From positions 1 to 51,624 of the forward strand of contig JBAWZF010000019.1 of NCBI GenBank assembly GCA_037143175.1: DNA of 51,624 nt, read 5' to 3'. Position numbers and translations under genes: made by a program. Shown here one piece after another: positions 35,274 through 40,801 of this stretch. The notes beneath the pieces were generated by a model. It saw only the letters and a list, made by a program, of their open reading frames with translations, was not told the origin of the DNA and did not search any database. The number at the start of each line of letters is the position of its first letter. The first letter of the stretch is position 1. The DNA comes from a bacterium. Its GTDB lineage: Bacteria > Verrucomicrobiota > Kiritimatiellia > CAIKKV01 > CAITUY01.

Positions 35274-37502
35274 ATGCCTACCGACCCCATTTGCGGAATG
35301 ACTGTTGATGAGGCGACGGTGCTTTCCTGTGTAAAGGAGGGCAAGACGTGGTATTTCTGCCATGAATCCTGTCGTCGGAAATTCCTGGGGCTTCCGCCCA
35401 TCACTTCTCCCGGCAAACCCCATACCGCCGCCTATTTCTGCCCCATGTGCGAAGGGGTCGAAAGCCCTGTTCCCGCGACCTGCCCGAAATGCGGTATGGC
35501 GCTCGAGAGCAGCGGACTCACCGCCGAAGAGGACACCTCTGAATTGGACGACATGACGCGTCGGCTCAAATGGGGTATCTGTTTTGGTCTTCCGCTCTTT
35601 ATCCTCTCCATGGGCCCCATGGTCTTTCCGGCCATGCATGCCTGGATTGCTCCGCATTTCTCCCGTTGGGTAGAAATGCTGCTGGCGATTCCGGTGGTGC
35701 TCTGGTGTGGCCTCCCATTTTTTCAACGCGCCTGGCTCTCGCTCCGCACCCTGAACCTTAATATGTTCACGCTGATCGGACTGGGCACCGGAACGGCCTT
35801 TTCTTACAGCATGCTCGCCATGCTGTTCCCGGGGATTTTCCCCGAGTCCTTCCATCACCATGGCGGCGTTCCCATTTATTTTGAGGCGGCCTCAACCATC
35901 ATCATTCTCGTCCTGCTAGGGCAGGTCATGGAGTTAAGCGCCCGCAGAAAAACCGGATCCGCCATCCGCGAACTGCTCAAACTTACCCCAACCACAGCCT
36001 GCGTGGTTAAGGACGGCGAAGAGCGGGAAATTCCCCTGAGCGACGTACACCCCGGTGACATCCTGCGCGTCCGCCCCGGCGGAAAAATACCGGTAGATGG
36101 CGAAATCCTTGAGGGCCATGGCTCCATCGATGCCTCCATGCTGACGGGCGAGGCCGAGGCCATTGAAGCAGATGCGGGCAGTCCTGTTGCGGCCGGCACC
36201 ATCAATCGCTCGGGTTCCTTCCTGATGCACGCCTCAAAAATCGGCGCGGAGACCCTCTTCGCCCGGATTGTTCAGAGGGTCTCTGAAGCCCAACGCAGCC
36301 GGGCTCCTGTCCAACATCTGGCCGATCGCGTGGCCGCCGTGTTTGTCCCCATTGTAGGCCTGGCCGCTTTACTCACCTTCGCCATCTGGGCCTGGTGTGG
36401 CCCCGAGCCACGAGTTATTTTCGCCATGGTCAATGCCGTCTCCGTCCTCATCATCGCCTGCCCCTGTGCACTGGGTTTGGCCACCCCCATGGCGGTAATG
36501 GTCGGCATCGGCCGCGGGGCCCGCGCCGGAATTCTCATACGCGACGCCACCGTTCTGGAGCAATTACAGCGGGTGGACACCGTAGTGGTGGACAAAACCG
36601 GAACCCTGACCGAAGGCAAACCCACCGTGGTGGCAATGTTCCCTGACGATCAGCCGTTGCTCCAACTCGCAGCTTCACTGGAACACCTCAGCGAACATCC
36701 CATAGGACAAGCCATAGTGCGCTATGCCCGCGCAAAGGGGCTGACACTGAAACCGGCCGAGGGCTTTGAATCAATCGCGGGGGGCGGGGTATCAGGACTG
36801 GTAGGAGGGCAACGCATTGTTGTGGAGAAGGCGGCACCAGGGGAACGGCCTGACAACGCAATAGCCCTTAAAGCAGGCCAGCATCAGACCTTGGTCATCA
36901 TCAGACTCAATGGACAACTGGCAGGTCATATTGCCCTTTCAGATCAAATCCGTACCACCACACCAGCCGCCATCAAGGCCCTCCACGAGATGGGCCTGAA
37001 AGTCATCATGCTTACTGGGGACAACCAGGAGGTAGCCGCCAGGGTAGCCCGCGAACTCGGGATCGATCAAGTCCTCGCGGCCGTCACACCCGAGGGAAAG
37101 CAGAATTTTATCCGGACGCTCAAAGCCAACGGCAACTGTGTCGCCATGGCAGGCGATGGCATCAACGATGCCCCTGCTCTCGCCCTGGCGGACGTGGGAA
37201 TCGCCATGGGAACCGGAACAGACGTTGCCATGGAAACCGCGGGAGTTGTTCTGGTAAAGGGAGATTTGCAGGGCATTGTCCGGGCTATCCGGCTCAGTCG
37301 CTCTGTCCTGAAAAACATCCGCCAGAACCTGTTTTGGGCTTTTGGTTATAATATGATCGGCGTACCCCTGGCCGCCGGCCTTCTCTATCCCTGGACCGGC
37401 TTGCTCATGAACCCCATGCTGGCAGCAATGGCCATGAGTTTCAGTTCAGTCTCAGTGATCGCTAACGCCTTGCGCCTGAATCGCAATAATTTAGATGCTT
37501 AA
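35274..37502 (+). CDS. Copper-type P1B ATPase with N-terminal YHS domain
   Basis: A 742-residue heavy-metal exporter. An N-terminal YHS domain (DPICGMTVD, then YFCHESCRRKFLG) is followed by a short Cys-rich heavy-metal-binding module (FCPMCEG, CPKCGMAL). Eight membrane helices surround the CPC transport motif in IIACPCALGLATP (around residue 395). Catalytic blocks are DKTGTLTEGKP (D near 438), SEHPIGQAI and MAGDGINDAPALA. The CPC motif fits Cu(I) or Ag(I) export. The usual HMBD motif histidine is replaced by cysteine (CPMCEG). Start ATG at 35274. Confidence 0.94.
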   Translation: MPTDPICGMTVDEATVLSCVKEGKTWYFCHESCRRKFLGLPPITSPGKPHTAAYFCPMCEGVESPVPATCPKCGMALESSGLTAEEDTSELDDMTRRLKWGICFGLPLFILSMGPMVFPAMHAWIAPHFSRWVEMLLAIPVVLWCGLPFFQRAWLSLRTLNLNMFTLIGLGTGTAFSYSMLAMLFPGIFPESFHHHGGVPIYFEAASTIIILVLLGQVMELSARRKTGSAIRELLKLTPTTACVVKDGEEREIPLSDVHPGDILRVRPGGKIPVDGEILEGHGSIDASMLTGEAEAIEADAGSPVAAGTINRSGSFLMHASKIGAETLFARIVQRVSEAQRSRAPVQHLADRVAAVFVPIVGLAALLTFAIWAWCGPEPRVIFAMVNAVSVLIIACPCALGLATPMAVMVGIGRGARAGILIRDATVLEQLQRVDTVVVDKTGTLTEGKPTVVAMFPDDQPLLQLAASLEHLSEHPIGQAIVRYARAKGLTLKPAEGFESIAGGGVSGLVGGQRIVVEKAAPGERPDNAIALKAGQHQTLVIIRLNGQLAGHIALSDQIRTTTPAAIKALHEMGLKVIMLTGDNQEVAARVARELGIDQVLAAVTPEGKQNFIRTLKANGNCVAMAGDGINDAPALALADVGIAMGTGTDVAMETAGVVLVKGDLQGIVRAIRLSRSVLKNIRQNLFWAFGYNMIGVPLAAGLLYPWTGLLMNPMLAAMAMSFSSVSVIANALRLNRNNLDA

Positions 37503-37568: not shown

Positions 37569-37626
37569 ATTCACGACATACGAAATTTTCATATATGCAA
37601 TCAATTCACGACGAAAACGGTATACT
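37569..37626 (+). promoter_or_regulatory. Direct repeats and -10 box before the DUF3570 operon
   Basis: ATTCACGAC occurs at 37569-37577 and 37604-37612, each followed closely by CGAAA or GAAA. A good -10 hexamer, TATACT, lies at 37621-37626, just after the second copy. No matching -35 box is present, which fits an activator-dependent promoter reading the repeats. Transcription would begin near 37633, about 50 bases before the DUF3570 start. Confidence 0.45.
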
Positions 37627-37685
37627 TTAGAAATATGGCATAATAATCGCTTATGACTCTCGGGTTAAGTAATCCAAGGAATATT

Positions 37686-39128
37686 ATGAACACAGAAAAG
37701 TCTTGTAAAAGCTCCCTACATGACACCCGTAAAGCAACCGCGACGGCGATTATTGTATTTGCCCTAACGGTTCTACCCCCTCGGAGGAGTCATGCGGAAG
37801 ATTCTCTGGGCGCCAAGTTCATGTATTATCAAGAGGATAACGATCGTATCAAAGTACTTGCTCCTGAGATTTCGGCGCAGAATGAAACGGATACAGGCTG
37901 GATAATCAAGCTTGATGGTATTTATAATGCTATTAGTGGCGCCACCCCCACCGGGGCCCCACCTGCTGCTGTCGCTCCGGTCAGTATCAATCGGCCCGCC
38001 GCCTCTTCTGGTGGAGGAACGACTAGCAGCACACCGCCGATAACCGTAACTCCCGTGAATAATGGCGGCGCGGAGCAGGAACATGAAGATGACGCCTTTA
38101 TCGGCCGACGCGTCAATTACCCGGCTGCCCGTTATTCAGCGGTGACCGCGGCCACCCCGGCTCCAGCACCAACCCCGGCCCCAACTCCCTCAACGCCGTC
38201 ATCGGCGCCTTCCGCGCCTACCAGCAGCCCCGCTGCCAGCAGCGGATCAGCAGCAGCCTCAACAACTCAACCTGCCGCCCAACCAGCCAACTCCTCGCGT
38301 ATTCCTCTGGCAGATTTCAGCGATACAAGATGGGCATTCAACATCGGCCTATCTAAACGTATGGGCAATCATACACCCAGCATTCAAGCCTCCTACAGTC
38401 AGGAGTCCGATTATCTCTCAACAGGACTCAGTCTTCAGGATACCTTGGATTTCAATAAGAAGAACACCACCCTTGCCTTTGGCGGCGCCTATACCCATGA
38501 CGCGCTGACTCCGGCCAACGGGCGCCCGAGCGAAACCAAGGATTCCATTGATGCCCTGCTCGGAATCTCGCAGGTGCTTACGAAAACAACCGTGTTCACC
38601 GCGAACCTCACCCTTGGCCAGGTTTCCGGATTTATCAGTGACCCCTATAAACTGGCAGAAGTAAACGGTCGACTCATTTATGAAAATCGGCCCGACAGCA
38701 AAACCAAGGAGATTATCTATGTCGGCTTGCAACAGTTCATCACCCCGCTTGATGCCAGCATCGATCTTGGATTCCGGTACTATACTGATTCATTTGGGAT
38801 CAATGCGGAAACGCTCTCACTGGCCTGGTTCCAAAAAATCAACCCGCACTTCATTATCAGCCCCATCATAAGGTACTACACCCAGACGGCGGCAGACTTC
38901 TATGATGTCCGCTTCAGCGGTGCCCCCGAATTCTATAGTTCAGACTACCGGATTTCGGATCTGACCTCGATTTCCTATGGGGTCAAATTCATCTGGATGC
39001 CCACAAGTAAGCTCACCCTGGATGCCGGTGTGGAGCGCTATGAAATGTCTGGAAATGATGGAAAAACAGATGAAGAAATGTATCCCACAGCCCTCCTGTT
39101 TATGGTGGGCGCCCATGTCTCTTTTTAA
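37686..39128 (+). CDS. DUF3570 outer-membrane protein with SGAT flavinylation-type motif
   Basis: A 480-residue protein. A signal peptide ends SHAED. The mature part opens with beta strands (GAKFMYYQEDNDRIKVLAPE), has a Pro/Ala/Ser-rich linker (around 155-225), and closes with a beta-barrel ending LLFMVGAHVSF. The DUF3570 assignment rests on the overall pattern and on the neighbours. Residues 81-90 read NAISGATPTG, with S84-G85-A86-T87 matching the consensus that ApbE flavinylates on threonine in NqrC and RnfG. The usual Asp three residues earlier is Asn here. ATG at 37686 has AGGA upstream. First gene of a four-gene operon. Confidence 0.85.
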   Translation: MNTEKSCKSSLHDTRKATATAIIVFALTVLPPRRSHAEDSLGAKFMYYQEDNDRIKVLAPEISAQNETDTGWIIKLDGIYNAISGATPTGAPPAAVAPVSINRPAASSGGGTTSSTPPITVTPVNNGGAEQEHEDDAFIGRRVNYPAARYSAVTAATPAPAPTPAPTPSTPSSAPSAPTSSPAASSGSAAASTTQPAAQPANSSRIPLADFSDTRWAFNIGLSKRMGNHTPSIQASYSQESDYLSTGLSLQDTLDFNKKNTTLAFGGAYTHDALTPANGRPSETKDSIDALLGISQVLTKTTVFTANLTLGQVSGFISDPYKLAEVNGRLIYENRPDSKTKEIIYVGLQQFITPLDASIDLGFRYYTDSFGINAETLSLAWFQKINPHFIISPIIRYYTQTAADFYDVRFSGAPEFYSSDYRISDLTSISYGVKFIWMPTSKLTLDAGVERYEMSGNDGKTDEEMYPTALLFMVGAHVSF

Positions 39129-39142
39129 GGCGGTTAATTTTT

Positions 39143-40078
39143 ATGGCGGCAAGCGACTATACCAAGCACACGTTTAATGCGATGGGGACTGTCTGTGAGC
39201 TTCAGTTCCAAACTGATTCAACGGCAGCAAGCAATGCGTTCATTAAAAGCGTTACCAGCTGGGTTTCCAGTTTTGAAGCTAAATTCTCACGCTTCCGGCC
39301 CGACAGCCTGATCTCCCGTATCAATGCCGCCGCAGGGGACAGTCCCGTGGAGCTTGATGATGAAGCTGAAAGTCTTTTGGCGCTCTGTGACTGGTTCCAC
39401 TGGTCAACCGGCGGAGTGTTCGACCCGGCGGCCCTGCCCCTGATCAAACTCTGGGATTACCACATCCCCCACGCCACGCGCCCGGAAGAGTGCGCCGTGC
39501 AATCGGCCCTTGTCCTCTGTGGCTGGAAGAAAATTCAACGCCGGAAGGGACAGTTCTTTCTTCCAGAAAAAGGAATGGGGATTGACGTAGGCGGAATCGG
39601 CAAGGAATATGCCGTGGATCGGGTATTTGAAATGGCCAATCAGGCGGGCCTCCAGAATGTCTTGGTAAATTTCGGTCACGATTTACGAGTTCAGGGCGAG
39701 CCCCCTGAGAAGGGACCGTGGCGCATTGGACTGGAAGATCCCAATGACCCCGGACGGTGCTGGGGCGGTGTGGTGGTTCGCAACCGGGCCGTAACAACCT
39801 CAGGAAACTACGCGCGTAACGTAAAAATAAATGGCGAGCAGTTTGGGCACATTCTTGATCCCCGCACCGGCTACCCGGTGAGTAATGGGTGCCAATCGGT
39901 CAGTGTCATTGCGCCCACCTGCACCGAGGCGGGCATTTTGTCCACCACCGCCTTCATCCTCGGTGGGGAGGAGGGGCAACGCTTTCTCGACAGTTACTAC
40001 CAAGTCGAGGGTTGTGTGAATGAAAAGAACAGGCAGTATCTAACCAGGAGATTCCATGAATACCTCATCCGTGATTAA
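39143..40078 (+). CDS. apbE: ApbE-type FAD:protein FMN transferase
   Basis: A 311-residue ApbE. Family blocks are FNAMGTVCELQF, the FSRFRPDSLISRIN region, GMGIDVGGIGKEYAVDRV, NFGHDLRVQG and the HILDPRTGYPVSNG metal/FAD motif. It transfers FMN from FAD to a Ser/Thr in an SGAT-type motif; the neighbouring DUF3570 protein carries one. Most ApbE proteins are exported lipoproteins. Here no signal peptide follows the only plausible start, although the upstream untranslated frame is hydrophobic. It lies 14 bases after DUF3570 and overlaps the next gene by 23 bases. Confidence 0.93.
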   Translation: MAASDYTKHTFNAMGTVCELQFQTDSTAASNAFIKSVTSWVSSFEAKFSRFRPDSLISRINAAAGDSPVELDDEAESLLALCDWFHWSTGGVFDPAALPLIKLWDYHIPHATRPEECAVQSALVLCGWKKIQRRKGQFFLPEKGMGIDVGGIGKEYAVDRVFEMANQAGLQNVLVNFGHDLRVQGEPPEKGPWRIGLEDPNDPGRCWGGVVVRNRAVTTSGNYARNVKINGEQFGHILDPRTGYPVSNGCQSVSVIAPTCTEAGILSTTAFILGGEEGQRFLDSYYQVEGCVNEKNRQYLTRRFHEYLIRD

Positions 40079-40583
40079 TAAAATAACCATACTGGCGGCT
40101 ATCGCATTACTGGCCGCAACAGGTACTACGCAGGCTGGCTGGAAAACAGGCTCCCCGTTACCGGATTTGAATCAGTTCAAATTGGAGGGAAAAGTCCCTT
40201 CAGACCTAAAAGGAAAAGTGATCCTGATCGACTTCTGGGCCTCCTGGTGCGGCCCTTGCAAGGCATCATTCCCCATCCTGAATAACCTGCAAGATCAATA
40301 TAAGACCCGGGGATTTGAAATCATTGCCGTGAATCAGGATCAGACACGTGCGCTCATGAAATCATTTCTTGAAGAACACCCTGCCTCCTTCATCGCCCTG
40401 CGTGATGCAGACAACCTGTTGGTAGCGGCAGCAGATGTACAATCCATGCCCTCCTCCTTCCTGGTCGATCGCTCAGGCAGAATCCGGTTTCTGCATACGG
40501 GTTTCCATGGCGAAAAAACAGCCGCCAAATACAAAGAAGAGATTGAACTATTGCTGAATGAAAAGGATGGGCTGAAAAAATGA
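40056..40583 (+). CDS. TlpA/ResA-type thioredoxin-like protein
   Basis: A 175-residue exported thioredoxin-fold protein. A signal peptide (ITILAAIALLAATGTTQA) is followed by LIDFWASWCGPCKASFP with the active-site C65 and C68, a SMPSSFLVDRSGRI cis-proline loop and a helical end. It should reduce or isomerise disulphides in the periplasm, perhaps the Cys-x-Cys tail of the DUF4266 protein next door. AGGAG precedes the ATG. It overlaps both neighbours. Confidence 0.93.
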   Translation: MNTSSVINKITILAAIALLAATGTTQAGWKTGSPLPDLNQFKLEGKVPSDLKGKVILIDFWASWCGPCKASFPILNNLQDQYKTRGFEIIAVNQDQTRALMKSFLEEHPASFIALRDADNLLVAAADVQSMPSSFLVDRSGRIRFLHTGFHGEKTAAKYKEEIELLLNEKDGLKK

Positions 40584-40801
40584 AACACCGCCTGCTCAAA
40601 CTAGGATTGATATCTATCGGTCTCATTTCGCTTACCGGCTGCGGAACGGTTCAACCCTGGGAGCGGGGAACCCTCTCCGACTATACCATGCGCCAGGATC
40701 GTGATCCCCTGACCGACTCCATGCGGGAACACGTTTACTTTACACGCGAATCCGCCGCCGGTGGACGCGGAGTGGGTGGCGGCGGTTGCGGCTGTAACTA
40801 G
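40580..40801 (+). CDS. DUF4266 lipoprotein with C-terminal CGCN
   Basis: A 73-residue lipoprotein. The lipobox LISLTGC places the lipidated cysteine at residue 21. The short mature part contains WERGTLSDYTMRQDRDPL and ends GGRGVGGGGCGCN, with cysteines at 70 and 72. The TM[RQ]xDRDPL segment and Gly-rich CGCN tail are the DUF4266 hallmarks and strongly conserved in this family. The tail looks like a metal or cofactor ligand, or a modified site. Its ATG overlaps the TlpA stop (ATGA). The function is unknown. Confidence 0.9.
   Translation: MKHRLLKLGLISIGLISLTGCGTVQPWERGTLSDYTMRQDRDPLTDSMREHVYFTRESAAGGRGVGGGGCGCN

Follow-up and report, generated by a model that had tools for sequence, protein, structure and literature searches.

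Organization of the DUF3570-ApbE-TlpA-DUF4266 locus

The window, a 51,624-nucleotide stretch of contig JBAWZF010000019.1 (assembly GCA_037143175.1) from a bacterium of the Verrucomicrobiota (GTDB class Kiritimatiellia), carries a compact cluster of four genes, encoding a predicted DUF3570 outer-membrane barrel, an ApbE transferase for flavin mononucleotide (FMN), a TlpA-like thioredoxin and a small DUF4266 lipoprotein. The features of the cluster are as follows.

37686..39128, + strand: DUF3570 gene, predicted outer-membrane beta-barrel (Pfam PF12094, 1.3e-72)
37926..37946, + strand: flavinylation-type motif N-A-I-S-G-A-T in DUF3570, compare D-x-x-[S/T]-G-A-[S/T] (PMC12052999)
37950..38306, + strand: predicted barrel loop L2, mature residues 52-170, mostly disordered and rich in Pro/Ala/Ser/Thr, with the degenerate motif SAVTAAT
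39143..40078, + strand: ApbE FMN transferase gene of the swapped class described below (GKE..., EAG...; Pfam PF02424, 2e-72)
40056..40583, + strand: TlpA/ResA-like thioredoxin gene, predicted to be exported, with a WCGPC motif (Pfam Redoxin/Thioredoxin_8/AhpC-TSA)
40580..40801, + strand: DUF4266 small lipoprotein gene, lipobox LTGC, C-terminus GGGGCGCN (Pfam PF14086, 4.9e-22, and alignment)

The tight packing described in an earlier note on this DNA, a gap of 14 bases followed by overlaps of 23 and 4 bases, was reproduced for these four plus-strand genes. The span assigned to the module there, 37569-40801, holds for the genes themselves, but positions 37569 to 37652 are non-coding. The earliest in-frame ATG of the DUF3570 open reading frame (ORF) lies at 37653, and 37686 is the likelier start because AAGGAA stands upstream of it and the start of the same-genus orthologue matches. 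Genome search of the 3.3-Mb assembly (107 contigs) returned one DUF3570, one ApbE and no FMN_bind protein, so that DUF3570 is the sole known substrate family found for this ApbE, in a search that did not extend to DUF2271.

Distribution of the four-gene set

The genomes surveyed are partly metagenome-assembled and their ORFs were called mechanically. Among 195 genomes of the window's phylum, DUF3570 was found in 21 and DUF4266 in 20, all within those 21; the remaining DUF3570 genome contributed a marginal match, located on a short contig. In all 20 DUF4266 genomes the four genes were clustered together, in the order DUF3570-ApbE-TlpA-DUF4266 in 18 genomes (20 clusters) and DUF4266-DUF3570-TlpA-ApbE in two. 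A scan for DUF4266, queried with an alignment of closer sequences, gave eighty loci showing the set, mostly from Verrucomicrobiota with some from Pseudomonadota, Acidobacteriota and Ignavibacteriota, a few of the clusters being cut by contig ends or lacking ApbE. DUF3570 was also present in 86 of 296 genomes of the phylum holding the Ignavibacteria genome, and nearly all loci fetched from these contained DUF4266 and ApbE, ordered TlpA-DUF4266-DUF3570-ApbE (Chlorobiales type) or ApbE-DUF4266-DUF3570. The chlorosome protein CsmA was encoded in all 21 Chlorobiales-type genomes tested. A plasmid search returned only two Hymenobacter records.

The four families, whose rare co-occurrence had been named beforehand as the outcome that would speak against a module, are thus kept together in several phyla, and since their order is conserved in many genera, the cluster is not a chance assembly. 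This bears out the proposal of a single module that joins a motif-bearing envelope barrel and its ApbE to a thiol partner and a small lipoprotein with CxC. The counts do not represent independent events, because the samples share kinship and the tree places the active-site swap described below on a single branch.

Two or more DUF3570 modules or tandem DUF3570 genes, with differing motif numbers, are present in several genomes (L178, L180 with four copies, L166, L050, L051 and L080). At L040:7079-8487, a cluster also sampled as L060, the DUF3570 frame is split, with an in-frame TAG given in the search output, which points to either a broken gene or an assembly error, and ApbE, TlpA and DUF4266 look intact.

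Relation to published flavinylation clusters

The description of the module as undescribed fails, because a full-text literature search for DUF3570 or DUF4266 had as its only match Meheust et al. (2021, eLife 10:e66878, PMC8238504), who report the same four-family set as a "DsbD system" of ApbE, DUF3570, thioredoxin-like and DUF4266 genes, including experimental flavinylation of a DUF3570. Of their 285 DsbD clusters, 227 contained DUF3570, 183 thioredoxin and 221 DUF4266, and 316 further clusters held the same four families without DsbD (PMC8238504). The Chlorobium luteolum DUF3570 was flavinylated by its ApbE at two [S/T]GA[S/T] motifs, in an assay that co-expressed signal-truncated proteins in Escherichia coli and recovered DUF3570 in the insoluble pellet; the C-terminal CxC of DUF4266 was named, and the function was described as uncertain (PMC8238504). 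The window shares with these clusters the four families, the kind of motif and the CxC tail of DUF4266, but differs in its gene order with DsbD absent from the cluster, in a DUF3570 that has a single clear motif and, in its long Pro-rich loop, a second that is degenerate, and in a thioredoxin that matches Redoxin/Thioredoxin_8 rather than the PF13899 named there (PMC8238504). The target-gene criterion of that study demanded a signal on just one gene per cluster, and its main text contains no discussion of a missing ApbE signal, a swapped active site or barrel topology. As far as the literature searched shows, the signal-less module ApbE, the Glu/Gly-swapped ApbE clade and the predicted outward-facing motifs are new.

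An ApbE without export signal and with a swapped active site

The window ApbE begins MAASDYTKHTFNAMGT, ten residues ahead of the conserved core; its start lies 14 bases past the DUF3570 stop and has a good ribosome site, and the 23 open codons upstream contain no start codon. Since the signal peptide or lipobox of canonical extracytosolic ApbEs is absent, the enzyme is predicted to be cytosolic, whereas its substrate is an exported 16-strand barrel. The shared envelope location previously suggested for all four products is therefore retained for the barrel, the thiol partner and the lipoprotein, but not for ApbE. Across type A and type B clusters no signal was found on ApbE, which in several of them is immediately preceded by a stop codon or by the neighbouring gene. 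Together with the rearranged active site described below, and found like it in nearly every close relative examined, the missing signal suggests that the flavin is attached to the barrel inside the cell, ahead of export. No signal-less ApbE serving an exported substrate was found in the literature searched, where such an enzyme is known for a cytosolic substrate: the cytosolic ApbE of Klebsiella pneumoniae likewise has no signal peptide, but its substrate is a soluble cytoplasmic fumarate reductase instead of an exported barrel (review, PMC12052999).

Alignment with solved ApbEs indicates that the window enzyme shares with canonical ApbE, Ftp and FmnB the family, the triad Ser and His (TSG, GHILDP) and the active-site Lys. 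It differs from them, besides the missing signal peptide or lipobox, at two positions, where the Mg2+-binding Asp (Asp301 in FmnB, Asp285 in Vibrio cholerae) is replaced by Gly and the Gly following the Lys by Glu. The two positions covary in 162 ApbEs, Glu occurring with Gly in 114 and Gly with Asp in 44, with no mixed case; the other four comprise two Gly/Val sequences and two that were unreadable. ApbEs of the swapped class form one clade (support 100/99) that spans Verrucomicrobiota, Chlorobiales and Pseudomonadota, and the 195 phylum genomes hold 20 of them (E of 3e-114 or better), in all of the 18 type A genomes and in no others, with the next match below the class at 1.5e-66. With duplicate clusters removed, a hydrophobic N-terminus is absent from 105 of 107 swapped-class ApbEs; as a control, it is present in 12 of 12 canonical ApbEs read in the same way. 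All eight genomes in which the module itself has no ApbE encode a signal-less swapped-class ApbE elsewhere, and five of them encode signal-bearing ApbEs as well. A single origin of all DUF3570-linked ApbEs was considered but is not supported, as the tree places them in two groups apart from each other.

At locus G284, which is CsmA-positive and has two SGAS motifs in its DUF3570, ApbE is signal-less and swapped, starts with VMDIFRFGFTAM directly after a stop codon, and adjoins DUF3570 on the minus strand. This genome presumably belongs to C. luteolum DSM 273, in which case the enzyme found active in 2021 is itself signal-less and swapped.

In FmnB, alanine substitutions of metal-site residues such as Asp301 greatly reduce or abolish activity (PMC8906456). 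The Lys position is occupied in E. coli Ftp by a Glu that binds the second metal, so that a Glu one residue further on could take over a metal in the swapped class.

The predicted DUF3570 barrel and the position of its flavinylation-type motif

The window DUF3570 scores 245 bits against a Pfam cut-off of 25 and has a Sec-type signal ending ...LTVLPPRRSHA/ED and a C-terminal VSF. AlphaFold models it as a 16-strand barrel with a mean predicted local distance difference test (pLDDT) of 82, mostly above 90 in the barrel and below 50 only at residues 80-166, and the model of a Chlorobiales homologue is also a 16-strand barrel (pLDDT 90.6). Structural matches were outer-membrane barrels with Z of 15-22; no closer structural relative came up, which is an absence of finding and not proof. 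An even strand number, short turns on one side, a C-terminal aromatic residue and a signal peptide, as predicted here, are those of an outer-membrane barrel. In both models the loops after odd strands are long (up to 119 and 33 residues), whereas no turn after an even strand exceeds 7 residues. Since the long loops all follow odd strands, the usual sign, the odd loops are predicted to be extracellular.

The flavinylation-type motif that had been noticed in the barrel protein was confirmed as N-A-I-S-G-A-T at precursor residues 92-98, counted from 37653. Its SGAT occupies mature residues 47-50, which puts the target Thr, mature residue 50, at the end of predicted strand 3, where it opens L2. 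A second [S/T]GA[S/T] motif has been reported for ApbE-associated DUF3570s, although it is not a cluster-type requirement (PMC8238504); the window protein has none, only the degenerate SAVTAAT with TAAT at mature residues 117-120. The equivalent site reads AGAT or SGAT in other members of the class, and single-motif members are common in Verrucomicrobiota. In the window's class L2 holds a Pro/Ala/Ser/Thr-rich insert of about 120 residues that includes this second site, and comparable inserts occur in same-class relatives. In Chlorobiales the two motifs flank L2, or one sits in L1 and the other ends strand 3, and the Bacteroidota variants TSAS and SSAS align with the two ends of L2. In every type seen, the attachment sites thus fall in the first loops predicted to be extracellular, and the flavins should point away from the cell. 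A supposed motif-less DUF3570 in one Bacteroidota group was dropped, since alignment places D-x-Y-T-S-A-S and SSAS at the same two positions.

Genes neighbouring the module

The genes adjacent to the cluster had been taken as unrelated housekeeping genes, which does not apply upstream, where 35274-37502 encodes a heavy-metal P1B ATPase whose N-terminal domains are YHS and HMBD. It ends 150 bases before the module, and this linkage is limited to the window's genus, for which reason the ATPase was abandoned as the main clue to function. DsbD adjoins the module at 14 Chlorobiales loci. VIT1 and a Rieske protein lie near it in nine loci each, in Bacteroidota (e.g., L200:7771-8346 and L201:3674-4447), and CusA-like efflux genes are found near some Bacteroidota clusters. 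VIT1 was also recorded in 25 published clusters (PMC8238504). The DsbD, VIT1 and Rieske neighbours fit reductive electron flow toward metal, none of them being universal.

Proposed route of flavin loading and electron exchange

The window's cluster is the DUF3570-ApbE-thioredoxin-DUF4266 flavinylation module as it occurs in a member of the Verrucomicrobiota (Kiritimatiellae). The gene set, the missing ApbE signal, the swapped active site and the place of the motif in the chain can all be read from sequence, and we regard it as fairly probable that FMN is loaded in the cytosol and the barrel then exported for electron exchange; sequence lends good support to the cytosolic loading, while the electron path is an inference. 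The dedicated ApbE would move FMN from flavin adenine dinucleotide to the SGAT Thr of the unfolded DUF3570 precursor. An unfolded DUF3570 appears modifiable, because the flavinylated protein lay in the insoluble pellet (PMC8238504). The modified chain would then pass through Sec and be inserted by the beta-barrel assembly machinery (BAM) as a 16-strand barrel, and since the motif sits where strand 3 meets L2, the flavin would come to rest at the extracellular mouth, if the barrel and its orientation are as predicted. Reducing equivalents from a DsbD-type transporter, encoded elsewhere in this genome, might finally pass to TlpA, to the CxC tail of DUF4266, to the flavin and to an outside acceptor, for example ferric iron. 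Cytosolic attachment followed by Sec, BAM and electron exchange is the most economical account. By analogy only, the arrangement recalls MtrCAB-type conduits, in which a barrel is likewise placed for electron carriage across the outer membrane; those conduits use haem, whereas this module has flavin and thiols but no haem, and MtrB is just a weak general barrel match. A more specific reading, plausible yet held tentatively, is that of a dedicated cytosolic ApbE class in which the metal carboxylate has moved from the Asp to the Glu beside the Lys, which loads FMN on the barrel before export to give surface flavins and, in many Verrucomicrobiota, also loads the downstream immunoglobulin-like (Ig-like) surface protein described below.

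Several observations weigh against this account. The whole case is built from sequence and predicted models, the barrel orientation follows from the usual loop-length rule, and signal peptides were scored by hydropathy instead of a trained predictor, with borderline hydrophobic stretches in two swapped-class ApbEs (L045 and L173). The route would require an FMN-carrying chain to traverse the Sec channel. DsbD is not in the window's cluster but on another contig, and the genome has two DsbD_TM proteins outside the cluster. In a separate Bacteroidota group (L200-L220) the ApbEs lack a signal but keep the canonical Gly/Asp active site, and in other DUF3570 clusters the ApbE bears a signal, so that cytosolic loading is no rule for the whole family. 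The Bacteroidota group, whose DUF3570 motifs are TSAS and SSAS, is possibly an independent second case of a signal-less ApbE with an exported substrate.

The same parts could also work in the opposite direction, with the barrel flavins oxidizing the thiols of DUF4266 and TlpA, as in disulphide formation of the Erv/QSOX kind, and passing electrons to an outside acceptor. A CxC tail beside a flavin does resemble a sulphydryl oxidase, and TlpA is present in types A and B; however, TlpA/ResA-like proteins are usually reductants and the Chlorobiales, wide carriers of the module, are anaerobes. The DsbD genes beside the module, at the 14 Chlorobiales loci and in published clusters (PMC8238504), point to a reducing supply, and we consider the reverse flow unlikely. 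Somewhat better placed, though still on the improbable side, is a role in metal handling, where the CGCN of DUF4266 would be a binding site for copper or iron, and metal at the surface would be reduced by the flavin barrel for uptake or detoxification. The P1B ATPase, VIT1 here and in published clusters, and the CusA-like genes speak for it, but the ATPase link is confined to one genus and no such neighbour is general. This role is not exclusive of the account favoured here, as it would be one version of its last step.

Two further alternatives concern ApbE itself. The enzyme might yet be exported, along an atypical route or by way of a non-standard start, and act on the barrel in the periplasm like canonical ApbEs; those studied well as partners of exported substrates are extracytosolic (PMC12052999). 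In relatives such as L187, L165 and L176, however, the ApbE frame is bounded immediately upstream by a stop codon or by the preceding gene, so that no longer start exists, and such export seems quite improbable. The swapped ApbE might instead be a catalytically dead binding protein, considering that it is without the Asp on which canonical activity largely or wholly depends (PMC8906456). It retains the triad Ser and His and the Lys, however, its clade includes Chlorobiales, and the C. luteolum enzyme was active (PMC8238504); the G284 locus, which is likely C. luteolum itself, carries an ApbE of the swapped class. A dead enzyme is very unlikely indeed.

The literature treats flavinylation of exported proteins as an extracytosolic reaction. 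If cytosolic loading holds, a widespread signal-less transferase would imply that attachment of a covalent redox cofactor can precede Sec export, and that many bacteria could bear flavins on their outer surface. The paired Glu/Gly change provides a clear sequence marker for the class and a testable claim on how ApbE holds its metal, and DUF3570, a domain of unknown function, gains a predicted fold and a predicted place for its cofactor.

A fifth gene in Verrucomicrobiota relatives

The window has no fifth gene after DUF4266. In many Verrucomicrobiota outside its class, DUF4266 is directly followed by a gene whose product has about 300 to 2000 residues (L086:4562-10639, L085:8257-10095, L088:8223-11522, L051:15939-18962 and about 40 further loci). 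By a hand count of rows, about 48 of the 84 clusters with sufficient flanking sequence carry such an ORF; a strict N-terminal regular expression proved too narrow (7 of 84), and an alignment and a looser flag were used. The protein has a long N-terminus with an LLQRTPVLR-like stretch, a hydrophobic stretch, the motif [DHN]-x-[VL]-[SA]-G-A-[ST] and then Ig-like domains; an alignment of 41 members shows the motif conserved in 37. The fifth protein could be a second ApbE substrate, or its motif could be an A-x-A signal-peptidase site.

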